Assembly (NCBI GenBank): GCA_032622095.1
Contig: CP136065.1
Location: 113,997,195 to 114,061,194 of the forward strand
Direction: 5' to 3'
Length of the DNA: 64,000 nucleotides
Source: Siphonodentalium dalli
Taxonomy: Eukaryota > Mollusca > Scaphopoda > Gadilida > Siphonodentaliidae
This document shows, piece by piece, positions 2,661 to 56,028 of this stretch. Every line of letters begins with the position of its first letter. Within the stretch, counting starts at the first letter, position 1. Made by a program: the position numbers and the translations under genes. Under the pieces are notes generated by a model. The model ran no database searches and was not told the DNA's origin. It was given only the letters and a program-made list of their open reading frames with translations.

Positions 2661-2869
2661 AGTAAAATCCAAGATGGCTGCTCGTGGCCATGTTTTTCGA
2701 TAGCTCCCACCCAGAGTCGATCTAGATTCGATCCTACATTTAAACATGCCTGTAAAATTTAATGAAAGTGTCAATGACACTGTAGCTCAACTTAGGTAGG
2801 GGAATATAATTTAATGGTTTACAGTAAATGGAGAAATAGGAAAGATGCTGATTGAAATGTCTTACCTGT

Positions 2870-5800: not shown

Positions 5801-6955
5801 CCGTGCTAAAGGATTTAGTCATACAAAGAGTAAAATCCAAGATGGCTGCTGGCGGCCATGTTTTTTGGCCGAAAGAACCCAAAATGACCCGTTCCCATCT
5901 ACATGTCATTATTAACATACATAACAAATTTTATGATGATCAGACTAAAGGTACGACCTGAAGCCCGTGCTAAAGGATTTAGTCATACAAAGAGTAAAAT
6001 CCAAGATGGCTGCTGGTGGCCATGTTTTTCCGCTGAATAACCCCAAAATTACTCGTTCCCATCTACATGTCATTGTTAACATTTATGACAAATTTTTTGA
6101 TGATCAGACGAACAGTACGACCTGTGGCCCATGCTAATGAATTCAATTTTGAAATCAAAGATGGCTGCTGGCGGCCATGTTTTTCGGCCGAATGACCCCA
6201 AAATGACTAGTTCCAATCTACATGCCATTGTTAACAACCATGACAAATTTTATGATGATAAGACTAAAGGTACGAACTGTAGCCCGTGCTAAACGATTTA
6301 GTCATACAAAGAGTAAAATCCAAGATGGCTGCTGGCGGCCATGTTTTTTGGCCGAATGCCCCCAAAATGACTCGTTCCCATCTACATGTCATTATTAACA
6401 TTCATGACAAATTTTATGATGATCAGACTAAAGGTACGACCTGAAGCCCGTGCTAAAGGATTTAGTCATACAAAGAGCAAAATTCAAGATGGCTGCTGGC
6501 GGCCATGTTTTTCAGCCGAATGACCCCAAGATGACTCGTTCCCATCTACATGTCATTGTTAACATTCATAACAAATTTTATGATGATCAGATTAAAGGTA
6601 CGACCTGTAGCCCGTGCTAAAGAATTTAGTCATACAAAGAGTAAAATCCAAGATGGCTGCTGGCGGCCATGTTTTTCGGCCAAATGACCCCAAAATGACT
6701 CTTTCCCATATACATGTCATTGTTAACATTCAAGACAAATTTTTAAATGATCAGACTAAAGGTACGACCTGTAGCCCGTGCTAAAGAATTTAGTCATACA
6801 AAGAGTAAAATCCAAGATGGCTGCTGGCGGCCATGTTTTTCGGCCAAATGACCCCAAAATGACTCTTTCCCATCTACATGTCATTGTTAACATTCATGAC
6901 AAATTTCATAATAATCTGACCAAAGGTACGAACTGCAGCCTGTGCTAAAGGAAAT
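2870..6955 (+). repeat. Main satellite array, ~25 monomers of ~163 bp
   Basis: Successive TAGTCAT landmarks fall at about 2881, 3045, 3370, 3542 and 3706, a step of about 163 bp; the monomer near 3211 has a variant start. Each monomer contains an inverted AAGATGGC...GCCAT pair. Variant monomers recur at multi-monomer spacing: the AATTAAATTTTGAA type near 3866 and 4512 with a related AATTCAATTTTGAA form near 6140, and the GACATGTAGCCCGCCCGCG type near 3187 and 4977. This indicates higher-order units and block duplication. Confidence 0.9.
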
Positions 6956-8289: not shown

Positions 8290-8632
8290 TTAAAATAAAA
8301 TTAGCAGTATTTTTTAGACATGGAATGGGGAAGTCTTGGATGAAAAATAGTGGGCGTCCCAAAATAATGCAGCCCATCGTTATTCACTCTGCCTGTTGCT
8401 TGGCGTCTTGGATGGAGTTCAACATAGTCAACACCACCTTAAAATAAAATTAGCAGTATTTTTTAGACATGGAATGGGGAAGTCTTGGATGAAAAATAGT
8501 GGGCGTCCCAAAATAATGCAGCCCATCGTTATTCACTCTGCCTGTTGCTTGGCGTCTTGGATGGAGTTCAACATAGTCAACACCACCTTCTTGGAGATAT
8601 TCCACCATCTAAAAGAATGGAACGGGGAGGAG
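8290..8632 (+). repeat. Internal 3' end of the retrotransposon lying upstream of the 5' LTR, with 149 bp tandem duplication and PPT
   Basis: From about 8489 this matches the sequence before the 3' LTR (from about 21928), including the purine tract AAAAGAATGGAACGGGGAG (8611-8629). A 149 bp unit (TTAGCAGTATTTTTTAGACA ... CAACACCACC) is present twice in tandem here (about 8290-8438 and 8439-8587). A complete solo element should not carry its own internal 3' end outside its 5' LTR. The 5' LTR is therefore probably shared with a truncated upstream copy. Confidence 0.8.
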
Positions 8633-9137
8633 TGTGGTGAATGTTGAGGTACACGTGGACTGTGCACATGTGTTTTGTTGACTATTGTTGTTATGAATGA
8701 TCATGTCAAAGGTCAAAGTATCAGGTGACCGAATCCAGGACGTTGAGTGGCGCACGGACTGAGCGAAGGAAGGTTTCCGTGGCGCGGAAGAATACATCTC
8801 CCTATCGATCTCTTGTGGTTACGATTCTCGGCAAGAACAGTCGCATGTTGTTCTAAGTTACATTCGGACTTCATCACAGTTTTCTAGGACGTTGGCCTAC
8901 ATCCAACAATCATCTATCATCACTCATACAATACGCCATCATCACGGATAACGACACGGACTTGCCCAAAGATTCACGACAACAGACCATCGGACCAAAC
9001 AGAACACAGACGAGCAGATTAGGTGAGACATCTTTTCTTGACCCCTTCTCTGCCCCGTTGATATTTCATGTTTGGTATAAACGCAATATTACTGTAGTTA
9101 TACTTTGTCACATCGCAGCAAAATAGGCAAAGTTACA
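8633..9137 (+). repeat. 5' LTR (505 bp)
   Basis: Begins TGTGGTGAATG directly after the purine tract and ends GTTACA, giving TGT...ACA ends. The 3' LTR has the same length and about seven substitutions. It contains a donor-like AG|GTGAGA at 9021-9028, a TATAAA at about 9076-9081, and ATGTCAAAGGTCA at 8703-8715, which is one base off the DR1 nuclear-receptor consensus. No AATAAA was seen. Confidence 0.85.
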
Positions 9138-11681
9138 ACCCCACCCGTACTACCAGCGAAATCTAGTGGTCAAGAAGACTTTATTAAAATTGGAAGTAGA
9201 ACTAAACAGAGAGTAGTCAGGGTATCAGGGGTAACACCTTCCACCCATGTTGTACATGATTTAACGATACCTTCTGTACTTCCAGAAAAGTCTTCTTCAG
9301 GAACGCCAAGGCAGACACGACAAAATATTCCATCGGCTGCCACTACTGCATGTACCCGTAAAATCAAAAGGATCTCTACTCAACCGGAGCTCCAAGTGCC
9401 GTCTCAACCAAAGAAGAGGAAACCTTCTGATGAGGAAATTGGCCGCTTCTTCTCCCGCGTGCTCCGACATACTCCACAAAGGGATTGTACGGTCGGGATA
9501 GACTCGGAAGGATTTGGAGAGCTGACCAAACTTCTCGAGTGCTCCCCTATGGTCGGGGTCGACGTGGAAGATGTGAAGCGGGTGGTTGCCAATTGTGCGA
9601 AGCAGAGGTTTCAACTTGTCAATCGGGCGGACGGGACTTGGAAAATCCGAGCGGTGCAGGGGCACGACTTTCCAGTGCCAGAACTGGAGTTGCTTGAGAT
9701 CTCGTCTCCCACGGAGTTGGAGAAGGTTCTACACGGCACATCGGTGGCGGCTTGGCAGAAGATTTGCACCACCGGGCTGAGCAAAATGAAACGTCAACAC
9801 ATCCACTTCGCTACAGCTGAGCCAGATGACAAAGTAATTGTCATTTCGGGCATGAGGTCCATCAGCACGGTAGTCATTTCCATCGACGTAGAGAAGTGTA
9901 TGAAGAATGGCTTGAAATTTTATAAGGCCCGGAATGGTGTGATTTTGTGCGCAGGCAATGAGGACGGGATTATTCCTTCGTGGGGATTCAAGGAAGTATA
10001 CGAGCGGAAGTCCAGGCAGAAGCTCAACTTCACCATGGAATCGCCCATCCCGGACTCAACTGATGTGTCGTCAAGAAGATCAACTCTAAAAAACCGGAGG
10101 AGACGAGTAGTTCGGCGTAAAGCTGGAAAACTGGTGTATCCTTGTCCTATCAGCGGCTGTTCCGCAACAACGCAGAAGTTGAAGAGGCATGTTCTGGGTG
10201 CGCATGTTTCGCGGAAATTGTGGGAGCCAATGGAGGACATGGACTTTTCTGTGATGGCCCCTGTGTATCTCACGGGGTTGGATGACCTTGTCGTCATGGC
10301 AGAAGGATTGGAATCGGTCGAAATGAGGGATTCTTCGTATGCAGAGTTGGTTGAGGAGATTAATGGTCAAGGAGGGATTCCAACCGAAAGCTCTATTGCG
10401 AGTCATGCTTATTCTCGACTGATGGAATTCTTGTGTAGTGAATTTCGACATGAAGGCTTCATTCAACCTGAGGGACCGTTTCTACTGAATCCTATTAACT
10501 CTAAGGCCTGCCTTGTTCACTGGAGGGCGCTAGTCCCCTTGCTAAACAAATGTTCGGCATCTCAACGTAGATCACTTATCAACAGGGATTCTACCGAAGA
10601 GACCAGGAGTGAGGTATGGAGCAAGAGATACGGTGGGAAGATAGACGAAACGGAGCAGGGACTTATGACAGAAGGGGAGGAGGAAGAGGTGGGACCTGGA
10701 CTGGCTCGCCCGGTTAAGGGCCTTCCCTCGGAATCCGAACCACGAGAAGAGGAAGAAGTAGGAACTGGACTGGCTCGCCCGGTTAAGGGTCTACTTCCGG
10801 AATCTGAAACGATGGCTGAGGAGGAAGAAGTGGGAACTGGACTGGTTCGCCCGGTTAAGGATCTACTTTCGGAATCCGCAGCTAGAGAAGAGGTGCCTAT
10901 GGAAGTTGGACACGTCGAAACTCAAGAAGAGACTGCTGATCCCGTCCAGGAATCGGAAGAAGTATCCTCTGGTTTATCCGACAACGTTTTTGGGGACCCT
11001 GACCCGGTCAAAACCACAACAACTGAGTATTTGTCGCTGGAGGATGATGATCTTGAGGACTGGATGGGAGAAGAGGTGACTTCGACGGACGGCGTGGAAT
11101 CAACATTACCAGCTTGCATAGACAGTCATTTCCATATGGATAGGACCCTGCAGGGCATTAGGCATGAGTCAATGGAAGAGGCCAAAACTAGTGTTCAATA
11201 TATGTTGTCAAGTCGGGGTGAGGGAAATGGGAAAAAGAGAGAGGCCCGGCAAGTCTCATTCGGAATGCCGGCCGTGTCTCTTACCCGGGAGGAGGAGGAT
11301 AGAATTGCAACCCTCCAGGGGGATATGGACAAATTTAAGTCGAGTATGTCCCAGAGTATGTCCAATTTGACAACAGAAATTGGTAAACTAGCATCATTCG
11401 TAAGGAAGTCCTCTGATGACAGGGCACAGGGTCAGGTTGCCATGGGAAATCATAATCAAAAGGGGCAATACAATTACCAGAAGAAAACCAATTACGAGGC
11501 CAATCAAAATAAGAACCCGAATAACCCAAATACAGCCCAGTACACAAAGAATTTGACGAATATTCGCTGTTTTGGATGTCAGGGTTTTGGCCACATAAGG
11601 GCACACTGTCCAGCCAAGAACCAACAAAATAGATATGCACAGGGAAACTACAGCGCGACTCCTCGAGAGGTCAGGGAGTAA
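9081..11681 (+). pseudogene. Chimeric ORF1: ORF3-derived Tpt1 segment fused to C-terminal Gag (coiled coil + CCHC)
   Basis: The frame is open from 9081 to the stop at 11679-11681 but has no ATG until 9549, inside the Tpt1 domain. The 5' part of the frame lies in the LTR. Content in order: Tpt1/KptA-type domain (about 9423-10010), C2H2-like finger (about 10138-10200), acidic EEEVGTGLARPVKG repeats (about 10660-10900), the first TatD motif DSHFHMD (about 11118), then an abrupt switch at 11154 to Gag. The Gag part has a heptad-like helix (about 11275-11410) and a CCHC knuckle CFGCQGFGHIRAHC (11568-11609). From 9156 to 11153 it repeats ORF3 sequence, and the TatD domain is cut after its first motif. 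I read it as a recombinant in which leader, matrix/capsid and start codon of Gag were replaced. It is very unlikely to be a normal Gag. A misassembly would look the same. Confidence 0.75.
9156..11153 (+). repeat. 1,998 bp direct duplication of ORF3 sequence (partner 18963-20960)
   Basis: Constant offset of 9,807 bp with no indel. All segments I compared by eye are identical, and reading frames on both strands recur with the same translation. The left edge is at GCGAAATCTAGTGG and the right edge follows CCCTGCAG. Length is exactly 666 codons, so the frame is kept on both sides. The LTRs, by contrast, differ by about 1.4 percent, so the duplication is younger than the insertion or is artefactual. 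Confidence 0.9.
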
Positions 11682-14600
11682 GTCGCGGTTGTTCAAATGA
11701 CCTCCCGGACCCCACGCAGAGTGATGAAGACAGGTGGCTGTGCGAGCATGGGCAAAGTCGGTCAATGACTTGCCAACCCCGCGTACCACAGCCACAGGTA
11801 GATCACCATTCTGGGTGGGATCGGAATTTGTTAGACATAAGTTCTTCAAGTCTCAATGTTTGTGGGGAGGGACCCGACCATAAATCAACACATGATCCAG
11901 TGGATTTTTGTATGGAGGTAACTGAGAACTCCAGTAAATTCTTCCAAGATGAACAGGTATTTGACCCAGGTGCATCCGATTTGAAGGAAATTTTCATTCG
12001 CCGAATTCAGAGGTCAATGATAAATCTACCCTTATTAGTAAATGGGCTAGAACTACATGCAATTGTTGACACGGCAGCTGATGTCACCATTATATCTGAC
12101 ACAATTTTTAACAAATTGAATTGTAAACCTAGTGTCATTAAACAAGTACCTATGAGGATGGCTGCTAGAAATTCAAAATTCACTGGTTCATACGTAGGGC
12201 CCATCCAAATAAATATTGGATGTCAAACATTTGAGGAATATATATATGTCGCTCCTATTGAAGATGATATGTTGTTGGGGTTGGACTTTATGAAAAAACA
12301 TGGCATTTCTCTCGATTTGCTAGCCAAAGAGTTGTCTGTTGGGGGTGAAAGCATTCCCACTGAGGGTGGCGAAATGATCAGGTTTGAGGAATATGTTCCA
12401 TCAGAACCTGATGAGATAGGAAGGGGGAATTGTAGTGTTGGGCCCCCGGGTTGTAGTAAGTCTTTGGCCCAGATCGATGAGAATTTAGCCCATAAGCAAA
12501 TGGGGACAGAACAACCATGTGAAATGGAATATGTGAGGCGTTCGGAGCATGTGGGGGAGGCTGGGCCTGGTTCACCCGGGCTAGGCCTTGACTCACTGCA
12601 ACGGACGTGTCACATATCATGTGAAAAAGCGACACAAACAAAATGCTCAGGGTTTGTGGGAGAGGCTTGGCCTGGTTCATCCGGGCTGAACTTCGACTCA
12701 CAGCACTGCCCATTTCCAATTGCAATTTCAACTGAGGAACCAAGGGGAACAGAGCTATCGCATGATAAAGAGCGTTCGGAGCATGGGGAAGAGGCTTGGC
12801 CTGGCCAGTCCGGGCTGAATCTTGACTCACTGCAACGGATGCGTCCCATGTCGTGTGAAAAAGTGACAGGGGAAGCAAAATGCTCAGGGTTTGGGGGAGA
12901 GGCTTGGCCTGGTTCATCCGGGCTGAACTTCGACTCACAGCACTGCCCATTTCCAATTTCAAATGATAAGAAGGTACGTAGGCAAGAATGTTCGGAGTTT
13001 GGGGGAGAGGTCTCGATTTCTAAGTCATGTTCAACAAACCCGGAAAACTATTGTGATAATATTGATTCGTCACCGGGCGATATTCAACCTGTGGGTTCAC
13101 AGGGACCTGATATTTTGTCGGCACCCAATGAGTTACTGAGGCAAGTTGATAACATTTGTTCGGACGTATATATGAAATCGACTAGAACCATCCCACCTCA
13201 TATGATAGCCTTGGTTAAGTGTAAAACATCAAAATTGAATGGTGATTTCGTTTTGGAGCGTTCTTTTCATGAGCCCTCACTTTTGGTGGCCAGTAGTTTT
13301 CACTCTAACACGGAATCTCCAGTTGCATGTGTGGTTAATCTGACTGACAGGGCGATACGATTACGAAGGGGTCAGTTGGTCACTCAGGCTATTGCCACAC
13401 CAGGTGCGGCTGTCATGGACTCAATCACACAAACATTACCAATGCCATGTGCCAATAAAGTATCGGTTGCACAAAACGCTGATGAGATACCTTCTTATCT
13501 AGTGGACTTGTACGAGAGGTCGCGAGGTCACTTATCAGAACTTGAACAATTGGGCTTGCGAAAATTGTTGATTGAATTCCAAGATGTATTTGCCCAACAT
13601 GATTATGACCTTGGGGATTTTGATTTAATTCAACATGAAATCCCAACTGGGGATGCGCTTCCGGTTAAACTCCGGATGCGTCGTACCCCAGCTCATTTTG
13701 TAGAGGAGGAAGAATCGCACTTAAACAAATTGCTTGAAGCCGGTATAATTCAACCAAGTTCTAGTGATTGGTGTTCCGCCCCCGTGTTAATTCGCAAATC
13801 TGATGGCTCCGTCAGGTGGTGCTTGGATTATCGGAAGCTGAATTCAGTCACTAAACGAGATTTATACCCGGTTCCGTTAGTTGACCAGTGTTTAGATGCG
13901 TTAGCCGGTAACAAATGGCTAAGCAAAGTCGATTCTAACCAGGCGTATTACCAATTACGAATCAAACCAGAAGACCAATGTAAGTCCGCTTTCATTACAA
14001 AATACGGGCTGTTTGAATTTAAACGAATGAGTTTCGGTTTGTCAGGGGCGCCAGCTAGTTATTGTAGGGCTATTAATCTAGTTCTTCAAGGACTGATGTG
14101 GAAAGTAGCTTTGGCGTTCGTGGATGATTGCGTTGTTATGGGTTTAGACTATTTGGATCATTTAAAAAACCTGAGTGTAGTCTTGACGAGGTTTCGGCAG
14201 CACAGGTTGAAACTAAAACCCCGTAAATCTGTGCTGTTCCAGAAGAAAATTCAGTTTTTGGGTCGAACAGTAAGTCAGGATGGGGTGGAAATGGGTGAGG
14301 GTGCTTCTGAGGCTATCCTGGAGTGGCCTACCCCCCGAAATGGAAAGGATGTGGAAAAGTTTTTGGGCTTGGCTAACTACCACCGAACTTTCGTAAAGGA
14401 TTATGCAAAGTTAGCCCAACCACTTTACTTAGTTACAAGTAGGAATCCTTTTGTGTGGGGGGAGGACCAAGCCAGGGCTTTTGAATCAATCCGACAGGCC
14501 CTAACCAAGCCCCCGGCTTTAACATTGCCAAACAATGTAGACCCATTCATTCTTGACACAGATAGTTCTGGTTTCTGTGTTGGTGCTGAATTAATTCAGT

Positions 14601-17287
14601 TCCAGGAGGGGAGGGAACGAGTTATCCATTACGGTAGTCTATCTCTAACGAAAGAACAGCGTAACTATTGCACAACCCGTAAAGAGTTGCTCGCTGTGGT
14701 TCTATTTACCCGTCAATATCGACATTATCTCCTGGGTCGGGAATTTACGGTCCGGACGGATCACGGTAGCCTTGCTTGGTTGATGGGATTTCGGGAGCCC
14801 CAAGGTCAGTTGGCTCGATGGCTCGAAGAGCTCAGCCAATATAACATGGTAATAAAACACCGGAAGGGAGATCTGCACATCAATGCTGATGCTCTCAGTC
14901 GGATTCCATGGGGGGAGTGTTGCCCGAAATTGGGGGTGAAATCATTACCCTGTGAGGGCTGCAAGTATTGTTCCAGGGCCCAGGAGAGGTGGGAGAGGTT
15001 TTCGGACGAGGTAGATTATGTAATTCCACTGGCGTCAGGCGGTTTTCGAGCCGTACGACAGATAAGAGTAAGGCCAGGGACGCCCCTTTCTGTACCCACC
15101 AGCCTCGATGATGATCCTTTGGACATCTATCACCTATGGGAGGAGGAAGATTCGGGGGTGGGAATGGAAGGTCTTCAGTCAGGGGTGTCAGGACCTGTTT
15201 CCAGGCCGCATGGAGGGGACGACGAAACTCGGTCTCCAGGCATCGTCCATCCGGTGGGGGACCCAGGGGGGTCACCAAGTTGTCAAGTGCCCCCAGCAGT
15301 TTCGAATTTGGGGATGGAACGTATGGTCTGGGACCCGGGAGGGATTGAGTTCGAATCGAATCCCAAGGATGAAGGGGAACCTTTCCAATCAAATGGGAGA
15401 GACAGGGTTCCGAGCCATTCTTTGGGACTAGAGGTGCATGATTCTCAGCTGAGTAGGGAGGGTGTTAACAAATCTCTCTTACGGGAGAGTGCACCCAAGG
15501 ACCAAACTCGCTGGGATGAAACTTCTGAAACAGGGGGGGCTATTGACCCGGGTGTAGGACAAACCGCACCTGGTGAAGCCCCAAATGCTACAGCTATGTG
15601 GGGAACTGTTGATCCTGGCACAGGTAGGCGGTATAGAGAACCCTTCTCAGAACCGCTATCCCTGCCAAGTGAAGTTCTGGAGACACATAAGCCTGTAATC
15701 GTCAGACCGTCTTCTCCTCATACTTGTATACCCATTACCAGTGTGGACATTTCGGGACCACTCATTGCAGTAAGTTCTGTGTCTTTGCCCACTTATACTG
15801 GGGAGGAACTCAGGGAATTCCAATCCCAGGATCGAGATCTCAGGATAATCCTGGATTGGTTGGAGACCCAAAGGGAACCATCGGAATCTGAGCTATTTAT
15901 AGCAGGCCCAGCGTCTAAGTATTTTTGGCTAAATAAGGAGATTTTTATGCTCAAAGATAACTTGTTGTACAAAGTGAGGAAGTCTGGGAGAGAAGTGGTG
16001 GTGGTTCCCGGGAAATTGAAAAGGGAGGTCCTCATGTTGTGCCATGATATTCCTTTGTCCGGTCACCAGGGCATTGCACGGACAAAACAACGAGTTCAGG
16101 ACTCGTATTACTGGTATGGGCTGACTAAAGATGTGGAGGGTTGGGTGGCAGCTTGTAAGGCATGCAATTTAAGTAAGAAACCAAATAGACACCCAAAGGC
16201 TGCCTTACAATCTTATCAGGCGGGTTACCCCATGGAAAGGGTCCACCTTGATTTTTTGGGTCCTCTGCCGAAAACAGAGAAGGGCAATGAGTACATCCTC
16301 ATGATGGTGGACCAATTCTCTAAATGGGTAGAGTGTATCCCCCTGCCATCCCAAACTGCAGAAGTTACTGCCTTAGCAGCAGTTAATGAATTTTTCTCAC
16401 GGTTTGGTTTCCCGTTTGAGATATTTACCGATCAGGGCAGAAATTTTGAAAGTAACCTTTTTGCGGCTGTATGTAAAGTTATGAATATCCACAAATCCCG
16501 TTGTACCCCTTATCGGCCGTCTGGGAACGGACAGGTTGAGAGGTATAACCGGACCCTCATGGACGCCGTGCGTTGCTTCACAGCTAAGAAACAAAAATCG
16601 TGGGATGTATTTTTACCACAATTAGCTGGGGCACTCCGATCTGCTGTGAATAGGCAAACTGGTTATACGGCAAATGTTTTAATGTTGGGTCGTGAGGTGA
16701 ATAAACCAGTAGACCTCATTATTCCCTCAAAAGGTAAGCCAGTCCACGACAATATTCCACAATTTGTGTTGGATCTGGAGGAGGCCATTCTAAGCGCCCA
16801 TGAGGTAGCGAGAGAGAACTTACAGACTGCTCAAAAGGTGATGAAAGGTAACTTTAACACCCGTACTCTTAAACGTCCCTTCAAAAAGGGGGATGTGATA
16901 TACATGAGAGATACCGCCACTATAAAGGGTAAATGCAAAAAGCTGCAAGCGAACTGGAAGGGTCCCGGTGTGATTATAAATGTCATAACATCAAATCTTT
17001 TTAAAGTGCGTTTAAGAAGCACTGAAGTGGTTTTACATTATGATCGCATAAAATTGTGTAGGGAGCTTAGCTTCCCTCGGTGGGTTCAGATAGTTCAGAA
17101 GTCGCTTGCAGATAGTGGGTCGGGATCAACTCAACCCCTCTATTGTATTTGTAGACAACCCTATGATAATGAATTCATGATTCAATGCGATGGGTGTCTC
17201 GAATGGTATCACGGGGCGTGTGTTCAAGTTACGCAGAAAGCTGCTAAGAAAATAAATAAGTATTTCTGTCCTGAGTGTAATGAGTGA
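11633..17287 (+). CDS. pol: Pol polyprotein: protease, RT, RNase H, integrase, C-terminal PHD finger
   Basis: Open from 11633; an ATG is at 11765 but expression by -1 frameshift from Gag is favoured. Numbering from that ATG: aspartic protease about 85-190 (VDTAAD active site, DTAA instead of the common DTGA; MLLGLDF later); low-complexity stretch about 255-400 with imperfect GEAWPGSSGLNFDS repeats; reverse transcriptase about 620-880 (KVDSNQAYYQ, catalytic AFVDD, where YxDD is usual); RNase H about 925-1060 (DTDSSG, KELLAVV, TDHGSL); a ~340-residue Gly/Pro-rich linker; integrase HHCC about 1426-1466, DDE core with D about 1494 and 1555 and E about 1590, then a GPY-like WKGPG segment; and PHD finger about 1792-1838 with all C4HC3 ligands (YCICR, IQCDGC, EWYHGAC, FCPEC). 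No internal stop or frameshift. The integrase tail position of the PHD is where chromoviruses carry a chromodomain, so a chromatin-targeting role is inferred. Confidence 0.92.
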   Translation: MCTGKLQRDSSRGQGVSRGCSNDLPDPTQSDEDRWLCEHGQSRSMTCQPRVPQPQVDHHSGWDRNLLDISSSSLNVCGEGPDHKSTHDPVDFCMEVTENSSKFFQDEQVFDPGASDLKEIFIRRIQRSMINLPLLVNGLELHAIVDTAADVTIISDTIFNKLNCKPSVIKQVPMRMAARNSKFTGSYVGPIQINIGCQTFEEYIYVAPIEDDMLLGLDFMKKHGISLDLLAKELSVGGESIPTEGGEMIRFEEYVPSEPDEIGRGNCSVGPPGCSKSLAQIDENLAHKQMGTEQPCEMEYVRRSEHVGEAGPGSPGLGLDSLQRTCHISCEKATQTKCSGFVGEAWPGSSGLNFDSQHCPFPIAISTEEPRGTELSHDKERSEHGEEAWPGQSGLNLDSLQRMRPMSCEKVTGEAKCSGFGGEAWPGSSGLNFDSQHCPFPISNDKKVRRQECSEFGGEVSISKSCSTNPENYCDNIDSSPGDIQPVGSQGPDILSAPNELLRQVDNICSDVYMKSTRTIPPHMIALVKCKTSKLNGDFVLERSFHEPSLLVASSFHSNTESPVACVVNLTDRAIRLRRGQLVTQAIATPGAAVMDSITQTLPMPCANKVSVAQNADEIPSYLVDLYERSRGHLSELEQLGLRKLLIEFQDVFAQHDYDLGDFDLIQHEIPTGDALPVKLRMRRTPAHFVEEEESHLNKLLEAGIIQPSSSDWCSAPVLIRKSDGSVRWCLDYRKLNSVTKRDLYPVPLVDQCLDALAGNKWLSKVDSNQAYYQLRIKPEDQCKSAFITKYGLFEFKRMSFGLSGAPASYCRAINLVLQGLMWKVALAFVDDCVVMGLDYLDHLKNLSVVLTRFRQHRLKLKPRKSVLFQKKIQFLGRTVSQDGVEMGEGASEAILEWPTPRNGKDVEKFLGLANYHRTFVKDYAKLAQPLYLVTSRNPFVWGEDQARAFESIRQALTKPPALTLPNNVDPFILDTDSSGFCVGAELIQFQEGRERVIHYGSLSLTKEQRNYCTTRKELLAVVLFTRQYRHYLLGREFTVRTDHGSLAWLMGFREPQGQLARWLEELSQYNMVIKHRKGDLHINADALSRIPWGECCPKLGVKSLPCEGCKYCSRAQERWERFSDEVDYVIPLASGGFRAVRQIRVRPGTPLSVPTSLDDDPLDIYHLWEEEDSGVGMEGLQSGVSGPVSRPHGGDDETRSPGIVHPVGDPGGSPSCQVPPAVSNLGMERMVWDPGGIEFESNPKDEGEPFQSNGRDRVPSHSLGLEVHDSQLSREGVNKSLLRESAPKDQTRWDETSETGGAIDPGVGQTAPGEAPNATAMWGTVDPGTGRRYREPFSEPLSLPSEVLETHKPVIVRPSSPHTCIPITSVDISGPLIAVSSVSLPTYTGEELREFQSQDRDLRIILDWLETQREPSESELFIAGPASKYFWLNKEIFMLKDNLLYKVRKSGREVVVVPGKLKREVLMLCHDIPLSGHQGIARTKQRVQDSYYWYGLTKDVEGWVAACKACNLSKKPNRHPKAALQSYQAGYPMERVHLDFLGPLPKTEKGNEYILMMVDQFSKWVECIPLPSQTAEVTALAAVNEFFSRFGFPFEIFTDQGRNFESNLFAAVCKVMNIHKSRCTPYRPSGNGQVERYNRTLMDAVRCFTAKKQKSWDVFLPQLAGALRSAVNRQTGYTANVLMLGREVNKPVDLIIPSKGKPVHDNIPQFVLDLEEAILSAHEVARENLQTAQKVMKGNFNTRTLKRPFKKGDVIYMRDTATIKGKCKKLQANWKGPGVIINVITSNLFKVRLRSTEVVLHYDRIKLCRELSFPRWVQIVQKSLADSGSGSTQPLYCICRQPYDNEFMIQCDGCLEWYHGACVQVTQKAAKKINKYFCPECNE
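11642..11687 (+). promoter_or_regulatory. -1 programmed ribosomal frameshift signal between Gag and Pol
   Basis: The heptamer GGGAAAC (11642-11648) lies exactly in the X XXY YYZ register of the Gag frame (caG GGA AAC). After a 5 nt spacer a 7 bp stem CGCGACT (11654-11660) / AGTCGCG (11681-11687) can form. The Pol frame is -1 relative to Gag and opens at 11633, nine bases before the heptamer, and Gag stops at 11679-11681. GGGAAAC is an established slippery heptamer in retroviral frameshifting. Confidence 0.8.
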
Positions 17288-17330: not shown

Positions 17331-20300
17331 ATGGATTCAGGACGAGGATCCCGTGACAAGTATAGACGGAGCCGACCCACGAATAGGGTGAACTCTAATG
17401 ATCGCCGGGACTCGCGGAAGGCGACGTGGAAAGGCGGAAGGGACTCGTCTAAACCCAGCAGTGAAGGTAGTAGTGCACCCATAACCCCCGGCCAACTAGG
17501 TTGGTCCGGAGCTACGCCTTTTGGTGAATTTCTGCGTGGGCAGAATGCCAAACATGTCCTGGTACCGGTAAAGCAAGCTGTCTATCCTTTGATATGTGAC
17601 AACAATATCACTGGGAAACAACAACAAGCCCTATTTGCAGGTCAAATAAAGATTGCAAAGAGCGAGGGAAATACTGGGTGGCTACGGGCAGCATACGATC
17701 ATGCAAATTACCACTTTGATAAGAGTTTCATTGTAGAACATCTGGGCGATTTCTGTAAAGCCTCAACAAAACCTTCCACGAAAAAAGTGGTAAGATCAAC
17801 ACTTCCTGTCAAAAGCACAGATACAACAACAACAGGGAAAATGGTAGCCATTCAGTATACCCACTCATCAGAACAGGGGGCTTCGGCCATTCAGGGATCA
17901 GGGGGTCGTGTCTCTGGTGGTTCTGGCTCTGCCGGAATAACTAGGGATAAGGCACCGGAATCTCAACTCGCTTCTGCAATCATTCCAACATCTGGGTGGC
18001 CTATCTCAGGTGGTTCTGGCTCTGCCGGAATAGCTGGAGATGGGGCGATACCAGTGATGGGAAGGGCCCCAGAAATTGAGAATACAGCTGCAACCGTTAT
18101 TCAGGGATCCGGGAGCTTTGTCTGTAGTGGTTCTGGCTCTGCCGGAATAGCTGGAGATTGGACACCGGAATCTCTGTTCGCTTCTTCGACACCGCAATCA
18201 CCTGTATGGCCTGTCTCGAGTGGTTCTGGCCCTGCCGGAATAACTGGGGATACGGTTGTGGGGGTGAAGGAAAGGGCTTCTGGGAATGATACTGTCTCGA
18301 TCACTCAGAAGCAGGGAGTTTCCATCGCTAGTGGTTCTGGCACTGCCGGAATAGCTGGAGATGGAAATAAAGAAAACATGGGTGTGGGAAAACGCTCAAT
18401 AGGAAGAGGTCTTTTTCAGCCCGGTTTGTTGTGTGGAATCGGGAGAGGTATGGGAAAACCGGTACCAGGCATGTCAGTTATGGGGAAACTGGAATACAAG
18501 GATGAATCTGTGAATACTTGTACAAGTAAGCCGAGAAAAGCTTTCCCTGTATCGGTGCCCAACAGGGCTGGTTCATCCGGGCTAGGTGGGTCTGGTACAG
18601 TGGATTCCTTTTTAAAGCCGATTGCTTGTCCAAGTAAGACCAGGAAAGGTTTCCCTGGATCGGTTCCCAACAGGCCTGGTTCATCCGGGCTAAGTGGGTC
18701 CGATACGGTGGATTCAGTTCAGAAGCCGATGGAAATAGTGGGGCCAAATCAGATGGTTTTGTCATCAGCCGTGGGTGCACCACCGACCGCTTCATCGTCA
18801 TTGAGAAGCGAAACTTCTAAAATTTGTCCAGATACAAATGTAATTTTGGAATGCTTGGCTAGGGTGGGGGATGGGCCTGTGCCATGCCGGGCTAATCCCT
18901 CTCAATGGCCAAATATTCATGTCAAGTTTTCGGTGGATGCAAATAAGAAATTTGTTGAATCGGCGAAATCTAGTGGTCAAGAAGACTTTATTAAAATTGG
19001 AAGTAGAACTAAACAGAGAGTAGTCAGGGTATCAGGGGTAACACCTTCCACCCATGTTGTACATGATTTAACGATACCTTCTGTACTTCCAGAAAAGTCT
19101 TCTTCAGGAACGCCAAGGCAGACACGACAAAATATTCCATCGGCTGCCACTACTGCATGTACCCGTAAAATCAAAAGGATCTCTACTCAACCGGAGCTCC
19201 AAGTGCCGTCTCAACCAAAGAAGAGGAAACCTTCTGATGAGGAAATTGGCCGCTTCTTCTCCCGCGTGCTCCGACATACTCCACAAAGGGATTGTACGGT
19301 CGGGATAGACTCGGAAGGATTTGGAGAGCTGACCAAACTTCTCGAGTGCTCCCCTATGGTCGGGGTCGACGTGGAAGATGTGAAGCGGGTGGTTGCCAAT
19401 TGTGCGAAGCAGAGGTTTCAACTTGTCAATCGGGCGGACGGGACTTGGAAAATCCGAGCGGTGCAGGGGCACGACTTTCCAGTGCCAGAACTGGAGTTGC
19501 TTGAGATCTCGTCTCCCACGGAGTTGGAGAAGGTTCTACACGGCACATCGGTGGCGGCTTGGCAGAAGATTTGCACCACCGGGCTGAGCAAAATGAAACG
19601 TCAACACATCCACTTCGCTACAGCTGAGCCAGATGACAAAGTAATTGTCATTTCGGGCATGAGGTCCATCAGCACGGTAGTCATTTCCATCGACGTAGAG
19701 AAGTGTATGAAGAATGGCTTGAAATTTTATAAGGCCCGGAATGGTGTGATTTTGTGCGCAGGCAATGAGGACGGGATTATTCCTTCGTGGGGATTCAAGG
19801 AAGTATACGAGCGGAAGTCCAGGCAGAAGCTCAACTTCACCATGGAATCGCCCATCCCGGACTCAACTGATGTGTCGTCAAGAAGATCAACTCTAAAAAA
19901 CCGGAGGAGACGAGTAGTTCGGCGTAAAGCTGGAAAACTGGTGTATCCTTGTCCTATCAGCGGCTGTTCCGCAACAACGCAGAAGTTGAAGAGGCATGTT
20001 CTGGGTGCGCATGTTTCGCGGAAATTGTGGGAGCCAATGGAGGACATGGACTTTTCTGTGATGGCCCCTGTGTATCTCACGGGGTTGGATGACCTTGTCG
20101 TCATGGCAGAAGGATTGGAATCGGTCGAAATGAGGGATTCTTCGTATGCAGAGTTGGTTGAGGAGATTAATGGTCAAGGAGGGATTCCAACCGAAAGCTC
20201 TATTGCGAGTCATGCTTATTCTCGACTGATGGAATTCTTGTGTAGTGAATTTCGACATGAAGGCTTCATTCAACCTGAGGGACCGTTTCTACTGAATCCT

Positions 20301-21710
20301 ATTAACTCTAAGGCCTGCCTTGTTCACTGGAGGGCGCTAGTCCCCTTGCTAAACAAATGTTCGGCATCTCAACGTAGATCACTTATCAACAGGGATTCTA
20401 CCGAAGAGACCAGGAGTGAGGTATGGAGCAAGAGATACGGTGGGAAGATAGACGAAACGGAGCAGGGACTTATGACAGAAGGGGAGGAGGAAGAGGTGGG
20501 ACCTGGACTGGCTCGCCCGGTTAAGGGCCTTCCCTCGGAATCCGAACCACGAGAAGAGGAAGAAGTAGGAACTGGACTGGCTCGCCCGGTTAAGGGTCTA
20601 CTTCCGGAATCTGAAACGATGGCTGAGGAGGAAGAAGTGGGAACTGGACTGGTTCGCCCGGTTAAGGATCTACTTTCGGAATCCGCAGCTAGAGAAGAGG
20701 TGCCTATGGAAGTTGGACACGTCGAAACTCAAGAAGAGACTGCTGATCCCGTCCAGGAATCGGAAGAAGTATCCTCTGGTTTATCCGACAACGTTTTTGG
20801 GGACCCTGACCCGGTCAAAACCACAACAACTGAGTATTTGTCGCTGGAGGATGATGATCTTGAGGACTGGATGGGAGAAGAGGTGACTTCGACGGACGGC
20901 GTGGAATCAACATTACCAGCTTGCATAGACAGTCATTTCCATATGGATAGGACCCTGCAGAAATTTCCCGCTTTTAGGGACTCATTCGATCGGTTACTAG
21001 AGGAAGGACCCACAGGAGCAGTGCCTATTAAACTCCACGGAGGGGTGGCTGTGTTCTGTGATCCCAACACGTTTCCGACCGAGGAGGAGCTCAACATGAA
21101 GTGGGGAGTAGCTGTAGGGCTTCATCCAAAGAAGTGGCATTTCTTTTGTAATCGTCTGAAGGATCAACTGCAGAAATTCGTCATGGATCCACGAGTTAAT
21201 GCCTTAGGAGAAATTGGGCTAGATTACACCGAGCCCGCCTCAACTCACGGGTCGCAGGAGAATGTGCTTAGGGAACTGTTGAAGATTGCTACACCCGACA
21301 AGCCCATCGTGTTACACCTTCGAGGGGCGGATACTTACGGTGACGCTGTATGTTCGCGGGTTTTCACCATCTTCCAGGAGATGCAGCTCACCAGTTATCC
21401 AGTGCATCTTCACTGTTTCGGACAGCGAAAATCTTCTGTGGCTCAATGGTTGACTTTTCCTAGGGTTTACTTTGGATTCACGGCTATGGCGCGATTCTTT
21501 GATCGAGACCAACGACTCGCGTTATGTGCAGTTCCGGATGATCGGTTACTACTGGAAACGGACGCCCCTTACTTCGGGGGAAAACGACCAACCACTCCGT
21601 TGTTTGTGGGAGAAACGGCTGCTGCAGTTGCCAAAATTCGAGGGGATTCGCTTCATCACATTTGTAGGATAACCTCTGAAAATGCGCGAATCTTGTACAA
21701 TTTGAAGTGA
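17331..21710 (+). CDS. ORF3: Tpt1/KptA-type phosphotransferase - C2H2-like finger - TatD-type nuclease fusion (1,459 aa)
   Basis: Starts at ATG 17331. Residues 1-~600 are basic then low-complexity, with five SGSGSAGI-type and two PGSSGL-type repeats. Residues ~634-826 match the Tpt1/KptA family: VLRHTP, KIRAVQGHD, LHGTS, MKRQHIHF, NGVIL and IPSWGF. All four residues of the family's R-H-R-R catalytic set are present. Tpt1 removes a splice-junction 2'-phosphate from RNA using NAD+, and relatives ADP-ribosylate nucleic-acid ends. Residues ~870-895 form a CX4CX9HX4H finger; ~1046-1125 hold acidic repeats; ~1198-1459 match TatD metal-dependent nucleases with all ligand motifs: DSHFHMD, GEIGLDY, VLHLRG, HLHCF, ETDAP. 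It occupies the position of an envelope gene, but I see no signal peptide or membrane segment. Role in the cycle is unknown; processing of RNA or cDNA ends or host defence evasion are speculations. Confidence 0.88.
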   Translation: MDSGRGSRDKYRRSRPTNRVNSNDRRDSRKATWKGGRDSSKPSSEGSSAPITPGQLGWSGATPFGEFLRGQNAKHVLVPVKQAVYPLICDNNITGKQQQALFAGQIKIAKSEGNTGWLRAAYDHANYHFDKSFIVEHLGDFCKASTKPSTKKVVRSTLPVKSTDTTTTGKMVAIQYTHSSEQGASAIQGSGGRVSGGSGSAGITRDKAPESQLASAIIPTSGWPISGGSGSAGIAGDGAIPVMGRAPEIENTAATVIQGSGSFVCSGSGSAGIAGDWTPESLFASSTPQSPVWPVSSGSGPAGITGDTVVGVKERASGNDTVSITQKQGVSIASGSGTAGIAGDGNKENMGVGKRSIGRGLFQPGLLCGIGRGMGKPVPGMSVMGKLEYKDESVNTCTSKPRKAFPVSVPNRAGSSGLGGSGTVDSFLKPIACPSKTRKGFPGSVPNRPGSSGLSGSDTVDSVQKPMEIVGPNQMVLSSAVGAPPTASSSLRSETSKICPDTNVILECLARVGDGPVPCRANPSQWPNIHVKFSVDANKKFVESAKSSGQEDFIKIGSRTKQRVVRVSGVTPSTHVVHDLTIPSVLPEKSSSGTPRQTRQNIPSAATTACTRKIKRISTQPELQVPSQPKKRKPSDEEIGRFFSRVLRHTPQRDCTVGIDSEGFGELTKLLECSPMVGVDVEDVKRVVANCAKQRFQLVNRADGTWKIRAVQGHDFPVPELELLEISSPTELEKVLHGTSVAAWQKICTTGLSKMKRQHIHFATAEPDDKVIVISGMRSISTVVISIDVEKCMKNGLKFYKARNGVILCAGNEDGIIPSWGFKEVYERKSRQKLNFTMESPIPDSTDVSSRRSTLKNRRRRVVRRKAGKLVYPCPISGCSATTQKLKRHVLGAHVSRKLWEPMEDMDFSVMAPVYLTGLDDLVVMAEGLESVEMRDSSYAELVEEINGQGGIPTESSIASHAYSRLMEFLCSEFRHEGFIQPEGPFLLNPINSKACLVHWRALVPLLNKCSASQRRSLINRDSTEETRSEVWSKRYGGKIDETEQGLMTEGEEEEVGPGLARPVKGLPSESEPREEEEVGTGLARPVKGLLPESETMAEEEEVGTGLVRPVKDLLSESAAREEVPMEVGHVETQEETADPVQESEEVSSGLSDNVFGDPDPVKTTTTEYLSLEDDDLEDWMGEEVTSTDGVESTLPACIDSHFHMDRTLQKFPAFRDSFDRLLEEGPTGAVPIKLHGGVAVFCDPNTFPTEEELNMKWGVAVGLHPKKWHFFCNRLKDQLQKFVMDPRVNALGEIGLDYTEPASTHGSQENVLRELLKIATPDKPIVLHLRGADTYGDAVCSRVFTIFQEMQLTSYPVHLHCFGQRKSSVAQWLTFPRVYFGFTAMARFFDRDQRLALCAVPDDRLLLETDAPYFGGKRPTTPLFVGETAAAVAKIRGDSLHHICRITSENARILYNLK
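18963..20960 (+). repeat. Partner of the 1,998 bp duplication inside ORF3
   Basis: This copy is in its natural context: the frame continues upstream into the ORF3 N-terminal region and downstream through a complete TatD domain. It is therefore the likely source of the ORF1 copy. Confidence 0.85.
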
Positions 21711-22040
21711 CTGCAGAAGTTCGGCCGGGGTAGTGGAAGCCCCAGATAATGGATTCCACACCTATAACAGTTTTGACATTCCTGGAAACGAAGGAAGTTT
21801 ATCTCGGGAACTCCTAAGAACTTTCAGGGACTTTCGGAAGGGATAACAAGCGTCCCAATAATGCAGCTTGTGATCAGTGCCTGGCACCATTTAGGGACTT
21901 TAGGGGAGAACTTGTATTCTGAGGGATAGTGGGCGTCCCAAAATAATGCAGCCCATCGTTATTCACTCTGCCTGTTGCTTGGCGTCTTGGATGGAGTTCA
22001 ACATAGTCAACACCACCTTCTTGGAGATATTCCACCATCT
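21711..22040 (+). other. 3' non-coding region of the retrotransposon
   Basis: Between the ORF3 stop and the purine tract. It holds short degenerate self-similar words (GCGTCCCAATAATGCAGC near 21850 resembles GGCGTCCCAAAATAATGCAG near 21931). The last ~110 bases are repeated upstream of the 5' LTR. Confidence 0.7.
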
Positions 22041-22062
22041 AAAAGAATGGAACGGGGAGGAG
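22041..22062 (+). promoter_or_regulatory. Polypurine tract (plus-strand primer site)
   Basis: AAAAGAATGG-AACGGGGAGGAG, a 22-base tract with a single pyrimidine, ends exactly where the 3' LTR starts with TGTGG. An identical copy at 8611-8632 abuts the 5' LTR. Confidence 0.85.
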
Positions 22063-22567
22063 TGTGGTGAATGTTGAGGTACACGTGGACTGTGCACATG
22101 TGTTTTGTTGACTATTGTTGTTATGAATGATCATGTCAAAGGTCAAAGTATCAGGTGACCGAATCCAGGACGTTGAGTGGCGCACGGACTGAGCGAAGGA
22201 AGGTTTCCGTGGCGCGGAAGAATACATCTCCCTATCGATCTCTTGTGGTTACGATTCTCGACAAGAACAGTCGCATGTTGTTCTAAGTTACATTCGGACT
22301 TCATCACAGTTTTCTAGGACGTTGGCCTACATCCAACAATCATCTATCATCACTCATACAATACGCCATCATCCAGGATAACGACACGGACTTGCCCAAA
22401 GATTCACGACAACAGACCACCGGACCAAACAGAACACAGACGAGCAGATTAGGTGAGACATCTTTTCTTGACCCCTTCTCTGCCCCGTTTGTATTTCATG
22501 TTTGGTATAAACGCAATATTACTGTAGTTATACTTTGTCACATCGCAGCAAAATAGGCAAAGTTATA
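22063..22567 (+). repeat. 3' LTR (505 bp)
   Basis: Starts TGTGGTGAATG and ends GTTATA, where the 5' LTR has GTTACA. Differences from the 5' LTR include the positions matching 8831, 8944-8945, 8990, 9060-9061 and 9136. Flanking host sequence resumes with ACAAAAGTGACC. Confidence 0.85.
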
Positions 22568-25009
22568 ACAAAAGTGACCAGCTAGAGAGTATAATATATA
22601 GCTGTTCAAAATCAACTAGGACAGCTGAATTTTCACATTTCCCAGACCCTTCACTGGTTATAACTTATAGTTATACTTGAAGAAGCTGAATTTCCACGTC
22701 ATTATTTTCCAGACCTGTTGAAGCTGTTCTCAGTGTTCAACTTAAATAAGCTGTTTGTGAACATCTCCCACTCGCAGTTTCTGGTCCATATAAAGAACAG
22801 TTAATTTATTGTCAAATAACAGCAATACGTGTGTGATAAGTTTGTTTCTCTACAAAGAACATCTCCAGTGGAATAAATCCACTCCAGACGAAAAAAATAA
22901 CGTGCAAAATGTATCACGTGCGTTCTATTGAAAATTAGGAATAAAATTATCCAAAAGCTGGATCGAACTATATGTCTGTGTCGGGGTGACGATAGTTAAA
23001 ATATGATAATTGTCATTAATTCGGTCAAATTGAATGGTATTTCAAGGGGAAATTACGACAAATTACATTTTCTGCCAGAATGATACATATTTAAGGTTAA
23101 TTTGAATTTATTTTGTTATAATTATAGACCGCGAATTACCGGTAACCAGTATAGGCCTATACAATGTATATAGCTATATTCTACAAAAAATGTGTTACAA
23201 CCATATATCATGTAACAAAAATTTGGGTAAAAAGTCTTAGCCCCCCCCTAAAATTCGGGCGCCTGCCGTACGGTTACAAATATGCACATTCTGAATTTCA
23301 TAAACTAGTATTGGCCTATATATATAGGCCTAGATATATACATATATATATGCAGGCCTATATATACTACATACGTAGGCCTACACGTACATATAATTGT
23401 ATCCATATCGTGTTCATGTTATAAACTGTAAAACATGGATGCATGGATACCGGTAGGCTATATGTTATTATCGATAAATAATCATTCTCGAGCGATCCTC
23501 CACCCATAAATCTAGGCATGTATAGGCCCTAAGGCATGCACGGATGTATATATAGAGTATTCACCCAAACCTATCCTAGGTAAATTCTTCCACCGAGTCC
23601 CAAGCCCGATTCCAACAAAATGGCATATATAGGCCCTATAGGCCTAATTGATTCAGAATAATATCTAAGTTCCTTTATAGACTGCCACCACAACCCCACT
23701 CCACGATGCAACAGCGACCTCGCCCTTGATATTATTTTTGTATAACATATTCAAAATAATCCTATATTTTATATGCAATTATTTTTAAATCACACTTAAT
23801 TTCGTGTCCATTTAAAATTAATTATATAGGACTTTACAGGTGCTTATTATGAACTTAATTATAGTGGTAAACGTCACCATTATATAGGACATATAGGGCA
23901 ATCTAGGCCCATACATACGCGCGTGTGCTGCAGTGAACGATTATCCAATAAGTATTTAATAATATATAGAGAACATTTGAACTACAGTGCGCCGCCCTCT
24001 CACACAGATGCGCCACTGTCCATGACGAATAGCGAGGCTATATATATCGTACTGGAAGCTGAAATACGTATATATAACTGCGTATTCTGGTCTTATCGCC
24101 CATTTTCCGTTAATAGTGAGTGAAAACTGAGTAAAGGCGAAATTGGGATTTACTATATATATAAATATCATTAATATGTTCCAAACTGAATCAAAACTAT
24201 AGCTAAACACTGCAATACAATGATATTAGAAGCCGTCAAACTTTTGAAGCGACGATTATTATATCCAAGATGGCGGTCAGGACACGCAGTGATGAGAATC
24301 TGCACAGAACGCGCAATAAGTATATTTAGGTGGCGTATTGAGCATGACATCAGTCTGATCCACTCAAATACCCTATATATATGTGGCGTATTTGAACCAC
24401 AAATACCTTATATATATATTGATATGCTATGCGTATCGGGTGAATATTTACAGCAATCATTTCAGTTCGTGAGTTGTTCAACTTTAACACTTCAATTGTG
24501 TAGGGGGGGCCTAAAACAGCAAATTCGTCTTTCTTATTTATCAGCCACTTTGTGTAAAGCGACACATGCACAACCCATCCATACAAATTATGTAGTCTCT
24601 GGTAGAACTACATTCCCGTCACACTCTCAGTTAATATAGAGAATTAGAGATCATATAGCTTAAATTCGATCGTATTGCGTTGAAGTCTTTAAATTGGGTA
24701 GAGTGTTCTTGAAAAATATAGCAAATTCGCCCTTCATATTTGCCAAGCAAAGTGCCACACTGTTTCGGGAACAAACCCATCCATAAACATTGTATATTTC
24801 CTTATGTAATTGTCCTTTATAATTACATGATTCTTAATACTGAGATCATATTTTGTTCAGTTCGTGGTGTGTTCATGGCGTCTAATAGGGCGGGGGAGCA
24901 ACAATGATTTTGTTCTGTATGATTATGTTAGTCTATATTATGTGTCGTTTAGAACAAATACTTCAGTTGCTCAAAGTCGATATGTGTTATAATATAAAAT
25001 TACATGTCA
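22568..25009. other. AT-rich spacer with TAGGCCTA/TATATA word clusters, no gene seen
   Basis: About 23140-23910 is dense in (TA)n runs mixed with the palindrome TAGGCCTA and AGGCCTATA. Near 24260 a single CCAAGATGGCGGTCAGG word resembles the satellite core. The longest open frame (139 codons at 24220-24639) crosses repeat-like AT tracts and shows no protein-like pattern. No splice-bounded coding exon was found. Confidence 0.45.
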
Positions 25010-49147: not shown

Positions 49148-49863
49148 TCTCATATATATTTTGAAGACCTCTGTTTGTCTGTTTGTTTGTCTGTATGTTT
49201 GTTTGTCTGTCATTGATACAAATCTACGATTCTCGACCGATCAGGACGAAAATTGGTACGTGTGTGTAGTTTGACCAGGCAGTGGACGTTGTCGTATTGG
49301 CGAGCCCGTGCGGCGCACGCTTCGCGCATGCGCAGACGAGATCTCGGAAACGGGTGGAGCTATCGACTTGAAATTTGCTATGTGAATGTATCTTGCCCCG
49401 GATACGAATTTTATCGGGTCGCCGAGCCCGTGCGACGCCTGATTCGCGCATGCGCAGACGAGATCTCGGAAACGGGTGGAGCTATCGACTTAAAATTTGC
49501 TATGTGAATGTATCTTGCCCCGGATAAGAATTTTATCGGGTCGCCGAGCCCGTGCGACGCCAGCTTCGCGCATGCGCAGACGAGATCTCAGAAACGGGTG
49601 GAGCTATCGACTTGAAATTTGGTGTGTGAATGTATCTTGCCCCGGATACGAATTTAATCGGGTCGCCGAGCCCGTGCGACGCCAGCTTCGCGCATGCGCA
49701 GACAAGATCTCGGAAACGGGTAGAGCTATCGACTTGAAATTTGGTTTTTGAATAGCCCGGACAACGTCGGCAGATCTCGGAAACGGGTAGAGCTATCAAC
49801 TTGAAATTTGGTTTTTGAATAGCCCGGACATTCAGCCCGGACAACGTCGGGCTCATCGGGTAG
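49148..49863 (+). mobile_element. Helitron unit 1 (family A)
   Basis: 5' TC end TCTCATATATATTTTGAAG preceded by A, then CTGT-rich repeats. Body of four ~115-120 bp repeats, each with ATCTCGGAAACGGGT and CGCGCATGCGCA. 3' end: hairpin AGCCC-G-GAC-AAC-GTC-GGGCT, CATCGG and GTAG (one base off CTAG), abutting the next unit's TCTAT. No transposase. Confidence 0.8.
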
Positions 49864-55694: not shown

Positions 55695-56028
55695 TATGTA
55701 TCTTGCCCCGGATACAAATTTTATCGGGTCGCCGAGCCCTTGCGACGCCAGCTTCGCGCATGCGCAGACGAGATCTCGGAAACGGGTGGAGCTATCGACT
55801 TGAAATTTTCTATGTGAATGTATCTTGCCCCGGATACGAATTGTATCGGGTCGCCGAACCCTGTGCGACGCCAGCTTCGTGCATGCGCAGACCAGATCTC
55901 GGAAACGGGTAGAGCTATCGACTTGAAATTTGGTTTTTGAATAGCCCGCACAACGTCGGGCTGGGTAGAGCTATCGACTTGAAATTTGGTTTTTGAATAG
56001 CCCGCACAACGTCGGGCTCATCGGCTAA

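Follow-up and report, generated by a model that had tools for sequence, protein, structure and literature searches.

Introduction

In the long terminal repeat (LTR) retrotransposons Vesta and Juno of bdelloid rotifers, a third open reading frame (ORF3) encodes a DEDDy exonuclease or a GDSL esterase (PMC5408684), and Ty3/Gypsy elements of orchids carry an AlkB N6-methyladenosine (m6A) demethylase that is active in vitro (PMC9289625). Chromoviruses are Ty3/Gypsy elements with a chromodomain in the integrase (PMC2774666). Here we describe an LTR retrotransposon copy in a 64,000-nucleotide stretch of the scaphopod Siphonodentalium dalli (contig CP136065.1, positions 113,997,195 to 114,061,194; this whole stretch is referred to as the window), whose ORF3 joins a Tpt1/KptA domain to a TatD nuclease domain. 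An earlier sequence-only reading of the window had put the fusion forward as a candidate for an undescribed system. Enzymatic ORF3s, nucleases included, are already known in bdelloid LTR elements; the pair of Tpt1 and TatD is not, as far as the literature was searched.

As described in PMC5408684, the bdelloid elements resemble the window element in their extra ORF instead of env, in a nuclease with RNA- or DNA-end substrates (predicted for ORF3) and, in one species, in the presence of two enzymes within one ORF3. The window element differs from them in its enzymes, TatD and Tpt1, and in its membership of a family with a zinc finger, an HWR domain and a TATDN2-side TatD catalytic domain. With the orchid elements (PMC9289625) it shares the Gypsy type and an added RNA-modification enzyme in its own ORF, whereas its enzyme is animal-type, with a predicted NAD+ (nicotinamide adenine dinucleotide)-dependent chemistry on RNA phosphates. 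As in chromoviruses (PMC2774666), a module of the chromatin-reader type ends pol, but it is a PHD finger rather than a chromodomain.

Among cellular enzymes, animal TATDN2, represented in the tree by one row named tatdn2, is on the same side as the TatD domain of ORF3 and has the same ligands, but ORF3 is borne by an element and adds an N-terminal domain (N-domain), the zinc finger, the HWR domain and Tpt1. Animal TRPT1/Tpt1 (KptA) corresponds to ORF3 in the whole domain and its R-H-R-R tetrad, with 7yw3 and 7yw2 as best solved-structure matches, but it is a short free enzyme, whereas Tpt1 in the window is an internal module of a retrotransposon protein of 1459 amino acids (aa). The titles and abstract beginnings listed by the literature searches, with Repbase and subscription papers outside that scope, gave no report of TatD or Tpt1 in an LTR element, and a word search of PMC5408684, PMC6431247, PMC2774666 and PMC9289625 found no mention of TatD. 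Both the ORF3 family with zinc finger, HWR domain and TatD and the addition of Tpt1 to it were absent from these literature listings.

Results

A retrotransposon ORF3 with Tpt1 and TatD domains

Sequence comparisons established the identity of the two domains, their catalytic residues, the membership of ORF3 in a wider family and the existence of one relative linked to pol. As the sequence-only reading had proposed, the fusion is the third ORF of an LTR retrotransposon: it is located in the position of env, between a Gypsy-type pol and the 3′ LTR, and the two LTRs differ at 7 of 640 bp (1.1%). The first ATG lies 43 bases past the pol stop codon in another frame, and the ORF is open for 1459 codons, for which the one-frame chance is ~2e-36 at the base composition of the element. 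An enzyme-coding ORF that replaces env downstream of pol is what characterizes LTR elements with an enzymatic ORF3, and no env family matched ORF3 at E ≤ 1 in Pfam.

Both domain assignments were borne out. The PF01885 (Tpt1) match covers ORF3 residues 636–811 and profile positions 3–177 of 177, the PF01026 (TatD) match covers residues 1199–1457 (E values are given in Table 1), and the sequence matches to solved structures agree (tRNA 2′-phosphotransferase 1, 7yw3, E 2.7e-30; deoxyribonuclease ycfH, 1yix, E 1.9e-13). The claim of an intact TatD site was likewise correct, as H1202, H1204, E1294, H1329, H1361 and D1411 are all present; in the TatD literature, these six positions are the metal ligands. 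Alignment to solved Tpt1 chains showed that the R-H-R-R tetrad is also complete, consisting of R648, H649, R695 and R757. In Tpt1, a conserved lysine is located two residues ahead of the third arginine of the tetrad (Lys66/Arg68 in CthTpt1, Lys69 in yeast; PMC6333775). Because this published spacing corresponds to KQR in ORF3, the third arginine is R695 of the KQRF motif; the sequence-only reading had the complete set but placed this residue in KIRAVQGHD (R709).

Compared with solved chains, the Tpt1 domain scored 92.3 bits for 7yw3, 84.5 for 7yw2, 60.6 for 7yw4 and ≤58.1 for ten others. Both 7yw3 and 7yw2 are deposited as tRNA 2′-phosphotransferase 1; presumably, these two are mammalian and 7yw4 is from yeast. 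An animal source of the domain fits this comparison, which covers solved chains only. The domain has probably remained active on RNA phosphates, with NAD+ as cosubstrate.

The zinc finger-HWR region gave a good predicted model (mean predicted local distance difference test (pLDDT) 84, predicted template modelling score (pTM) 0.78) with weak final residues, and this model had no significant structural match. In the model of residues 1–160, the N-domain is a helical bundle with block pLDDT values of 87–97 over residues 61–140 and no clear structural match; a relationship to capsid was considered, and structure comparison gave it no support. The linkers of ORF3 contain in-frame repeats (18517-18715 and 20484-20700).

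ORF3 belongs to a wider family that lacks Tpt1

Apart from Tpt1, ORF3 is by sequence a member of a wider family that combines the zinc finger, the HWR domain and a TATDN2-side TatD, usually with the N-domain, and that the sequence-only reading had missed. Two protein searches for the ORF3 family, which scored only the 8000 candidates with the most shared words, yielded 10 and 16 proteins. The zinc finger-HWR part and TatD occur together in 11 relatives (P0002–P0007, P0010 and P0012–P0015, with a truncated TatD in P0015), whereas P0008, P0009, P0011 and P0016 are without the zinc finger-HWR part; the remaining proteins were eleven others (P0017–P0027). Hosts of named family members include starfish (Acanthaster) and mussel (Dreissena). 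P0013 is listed in its source as belonging to a metagenome-assembled genome (MAG) of a bivalve symbiont, on a 9.9-kb contig, and presumably represents host contamination of that MAG.

A profile of 10 relatives, built without ORF3 and without P0010, found the zinc finger-HWR region of ORF3 at E 7e-22 and P0010 at E 3e-13, and gave no match in P0008, P0009, P0011, P0016 or 500 shuffles. An ORF3-free profile of seven relatives found the N-domain of ORF3 at E 6e-9, compared with E 1.7 for the highest-scoring of 500 shuffles, and did not find P0010; its ranges were picked after viewing alignments that contained ORF3, which makes this result mildly circular. With P0015 excluded, a Pfam scan of the relatives detected TatD in 10/10 and Tpt1 in 0/10.

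The Acanthaster planci protein P0007, which its record calls uncharacterized and partial, contains integrase, PHD finger, zinc finger and TatD in one chain, and its integrase-PHD part is 49% identical to the pol of the window over 451 columns. P0007, an automated gene model, joins integrase-PHD to zinc finger-TatD and is the single direct indication that the family is linked to pol outside the window as well. Of the fusion, the TatD half recurs: zinc finger-HWR-TatD was found in the relatives, once linked to pol, and its combination with Tpt1 was seen in the window only. A search for Tpt1 in proteins of ~470–1500 aa scored 1023 candidates and gave no hit at E ≤ 0.001, in a database that returned not even the window's own protein in any of the three protein searches. 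The Tpt1-TatD fusion as a recurring system was thus not supported, and by the refutation criterion that the sequence-only reading had set, the Tpt1 part is for now a single-locus event.

A TATDN2-side position for the TatD domain

The TatD tree, midpoint-rooted purely for display, comprised 25 rows from the TatD hits of the two family searches, with P0015 (truncated) and P0022 left out. ORF3 and nine zinc-finger-bearing relatives formed a clade (99/97) that was joined by P0010 (98/94), and ORF3 was placed in a five-row clade with Acanthaster P0007 (96/95). These 11 rows grouped with P0008, P0009, P0011 and P0016 (95/91), and a 100/100 branch separated them all from 10 free-standing TatD rows. 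Because only P0011 within the four-row group is named tatdn2 in its source and the tree contains no TATDN1 or TATDN3 rows, we limit the claim to the TATDN2 side. His1359 marks this side: 15 of the 15 rows that have a residue at this position carry it, against 0 of the 10 other rows, three of which bear bacterial names.

All six ligands were present in 23 of 26 rows (P0022 left out), the remainder being P0010, which has asparagine at the first position, and P0015 and P0024, which have gaps. Within the zinc-finger-bearing relatives with a complete TatD (truncated P0015 left out), the set was kept in 9 of 10. P0016 combines a TATDN2-side TatD with zinc-knuckle motifs (PF00098) and is another possible element or host fusion.

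Organization of the element and its chimeric first ORF

The LTRs form a direct flanking pair and the order of domains in pol is protease, reverse transcriptase, RNase H and integrase, both of which are as in Ty3/Gypsy elements (Table 1). Inspection by eye revealed no clear primer-binding site at the edge of the 5′ LTR and no convincing target-site duplication in the flanks. The PHD finger that ends pol, also seen in P0007, is a possible integration-targeting module that replaces the chromodomain. A 237-bp repeat of 1.8 copies lies in the pol frame between protease and reverse transcriptase (12538-12962).

Table 1. Features of the retrotransposon copy, by position in the window
Feature	Position	Strand	Basis
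5′ LTR	8500..9139	+	98.9% identity to 21926-22569 over 644 bp; left boundary set at TGGGCGTCCC, termini putative
First ORF, chimera of ORF3 segment copy and C-terminal gag remnant	9105..11681	+	ORF list, Pfam, self-comparison, translation
ORF3 segment copy, 1998 bp, in the place expected for the 5′ part of gag	9156..11153	+	100% identical to 18963-20960
Second complete Tpt1 domain, within the copied segment	9429..9956	+	PF01885, ORF residues 109-284, E 3e-48
Putative gag remnant with CCHC zinc knuckle	11154..11681	+	CFGCQGFGHIRAHC in translation; Pfam zinc-knuckle match weak (E 0.021, under cut-off)
pol ORF, 1840 aa	11765..17287	+	ORF list; Pfam domains
Retropepsin-like protease	12032..12295	+	PF13975 E 8e-9
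Reverse transcriptase	13790..14269	+	PF00078 E 3e-23
RNase H	14456..14842	+	PF17917 E 8e-30, PF17919 E 4e-27
Integrase, H2C2 zinc binding and core	16004..16519	+	PF17921 E 3e-18, PF00665 E 1e-14; within the region of 49% identity to Acanthaster P0007
PHD finger, C-terminus of pol	17144..17278	+	PF00628 E 8e-10; also in P0007
ORF3, 1459 aa from first ATG	17331..21710	+	N-domain, long linkers, Tpt1, zinc finger and HWR domain, acidic linker, TatD
N-terminal helical domain of ORF3, common to relatives	17526..17744	+	Profile of 7 relatives E 6e-9; predicted model of residues 1-160
Donor segment of the duplication	18963..20960	+	TatD match crosses right junction at residue 1210
Tpt1/KptA domain with R648, H649, R695, R757	19236..19763	+	PF01885 E 7.3e-48
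C2H2-like zinc finger and helical HWR domain (fold unassigned)	19938..20420	+	Profile of 10 relatives E 7e-22; predicted model
TatD domain, TATDN2 side of tree	20925..21701	+	PF01026 E 4.1e-36; tree; ligands
3′ LTR	21930..22569	+	Pairs with 8500-9139

The sequence-only reading had overlooked that the first ORF departs from a normal gag: a segment of ORF3 that includes Tpt1 overlies the 5′ part of gag. What follows the segment is taken for C-terminal gag by position and motif and amounts to ~175 codons with the zinc knuckle; gag is therefore not intact as in a Ty3/Gypsy element, although pol is still of that kind. At gag, this copy of the element is defective or misassembled.

Because the TatD match spans the right edge of the segment, ORF3 is the parent of the copy. 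A copy as old as the insertion would be expected to show 16 to 22 differences, calculated from the LTR divergence (the lower figure with neighbouring differences counted once), versus 0 observed, and it is therefore younger than the insertion, gene-converted or an assembly fault. An assembly fault is possible because exact or near-exact two-copy repeats occur in the window: an exact 149-bp tandem repeat at 8290-8589 that includes the start of the 5′ LTR, and others at 42712-42836, 50128-50459, 55907-56018 and 61016-61182. A chimeric first ORF as a feature of the family was set aside; the copied part is identical to ORF3 and must therefore stem from a very recent or artefactual event.

Surroundings of the element

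To the left of the element, a 164-bp satellite array of ~25 copies occupies 2868-6952. The right part of the window contains tandem units of 120–123 bp that look similar to each other (49301-49743, 55696-55931, 61447-61772), and the ORFs there are probably spurious. Eight of the 28 listed ORFs of ≥95 aa right of the element were scanned and gave no Pfam match above cut-off, the best weak one being Piezo_cap (E 0.012). Two near-identical 99-aa ORFs on the minus strand (52771-53070 and 59759-60058) represent a dispersed duplicate; the one that was scanned gave no match in Pfam. Across the window, a search for tRNAs was negative and no Rfam hit attained the gathering score of its family.

Discussion

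Our best explanation is that the locus is a recent insertion of a Ty3/Gypsy-type LTR retrotransposon copy with a defective gag and without a recognisable env, in which ORF3 encodes an accessory nucleic-acid enzyme with an added Tpt1 domain; taken as a whole, we give it slightly better than an even chance. Several results weigh against it. The Tpt1-TatD fusion was found nowhere beyond the window in three protein searches and in Pfam scans of 10 relatives. Linkage to pol was seen in only 1 of 11 relatives, P0007, which is a partial automated gene model, and the others are known as proteins alone; scans of viral contigs with ORF3 and two other queries, and of genome contigs with P0013 and one other query, found no related locus. 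The perfect 2-kb copy and the two-copy tandem repeats cast doubt on the quality of the assembly, and P0010 carries asparagine instead of the first ligand histidine. In PMC5408684, the bdelloid ORF3 enzymes showed no significant departure from neutrality and the authors did not show activity, which counts against assuming that ORF3 benefits the window element.

The alternative explanations overlap in part, and their probabilities need not add up to one. The TatD-bearing ORF3 could be a real accessory gene of its family while Tpt1 is a recent passenger, acquired from a host cDNA via template switching, present in one or a few copies and without benefit. This would be consistent with the finding of no other Tpt1-bearing relative and with the large internal copying of sequence (1998 bp) that the element displays. 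The Tpt1 domain, however, matches the profile almost end to end and has retained the tetrad despite being far from identical to the solved chains in the alignments compared, and because of this no decay is visible in it; a passenger is possible, with a chance well short of even. ORF3 might alternatively have a structural role in the particle, envelope-like or as an RNA chaperone, with enzyme domains that only bind nucleic acid. Such a role would suit the env position, the long low-complexity, acidic and zinc-finger parts and the ligand missing from P0010, but the six ligands are kept in almost all zinc-finger-bearing relatives with a complete TatD and no env family was detected by Pfam, and we consider it decidedly unlikely.

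A copy that is 100% identical over 1998 bp in an element whose LTRs have 7 differences in 640 bp, together with the 149-bp tandem repeat where the left LTR begins and the other two-copy repeats, could also mean that unrelated pieces were joined into the Tpt1-TatD arrangement by misassembly or recombination. These signs concern the 5′ end and the first ORF, not ORF3, which is open over both edges of the copied segment, has a TatD match that crosses the right edge and keeps the order of the family, with the N-domain before Tpt1 and zinc finger-HWR-TatD after it, so that an artefact of this kind appears improbable. A host gene with a TATDN2/Tpt1 fusion that merely adjoins a retrotransposon is highly improbable. 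Of the proteins compared, animal-type cellular enzymes come closest to both domains, but ORF3 is a single open frame between pol and the 3′ LTR inside one LTR pair, and the relatives share its zinc finger-HWR-TatD part, once fused to integrase-PHD; an adjacent host gene was set aside on these grounds.

If ORF3 is expressed and active as an accessory enzyme of the element, we infer its substrates and its benefit to the element as follows. The zinc finger and the HWR region would bind nucleic acid of the element. PMC12709183 describes human TATDN2 as a structure-specific RNase that resolves R-loops and reports germ-cell expression of tatdn2; in germ cells, the TATDN2-side domain of ORF3 might likewise cut RNA in RNA/DNA hybrids or trim ends while the element is reverse-transcribed or integrated. 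An animal-type Tpt1 domain would have been inserted into a linker of ORF3 in the lineage of the window element. Tpt1 removes the 2′-phosphate by use of NAD+ (PMC6333775), and human TRPT1 ADP-ribosylates 5′-phosphorylated purine RNA ends (5′-monophosphate; PMC9458441). The domain in ORF3 may do the former, or it may put ADP-ribose on 5′-monophosphate RNA ends as human TRPT1 does, and one protein could thus both make and mask RNA ends. The suggestion in the sequence-only reading that the element reverses an NAD-linked host modification does not match this chemistry.

An extension to self-protection is conceivable, but we regard it as unlikely. TatD or host slicing would leave 5′-monophosphate RNA ends, which Tpt1 would cap with ADP-ribose. 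Such a cap would block XRN1-type decay and, as our own extension, loading into PIWI proteins, and the RNA, having no normal cap, would be poorly translated and steered into particles. If true, this would be a retrotransposon-encoded counter-defence via RNA ADP-ribosylation.

According to PMC6333775, Tpt1 has no clear essential role in animals, and the mouse knockout is without phenotype. Because an essential role is unclear, a selfish element that keeps Tpt1 would give a selective context for the function of animal Tpt1. If ORF3 is functional, there would be an animal-type retrotransposon lineage that depends on a nuclease of the TATDN2 side and, in one branch or more, also on NAD+-dependent chemistry at RNA ends, and the pol-linked TatD family would allow a testable comparison across hosts.

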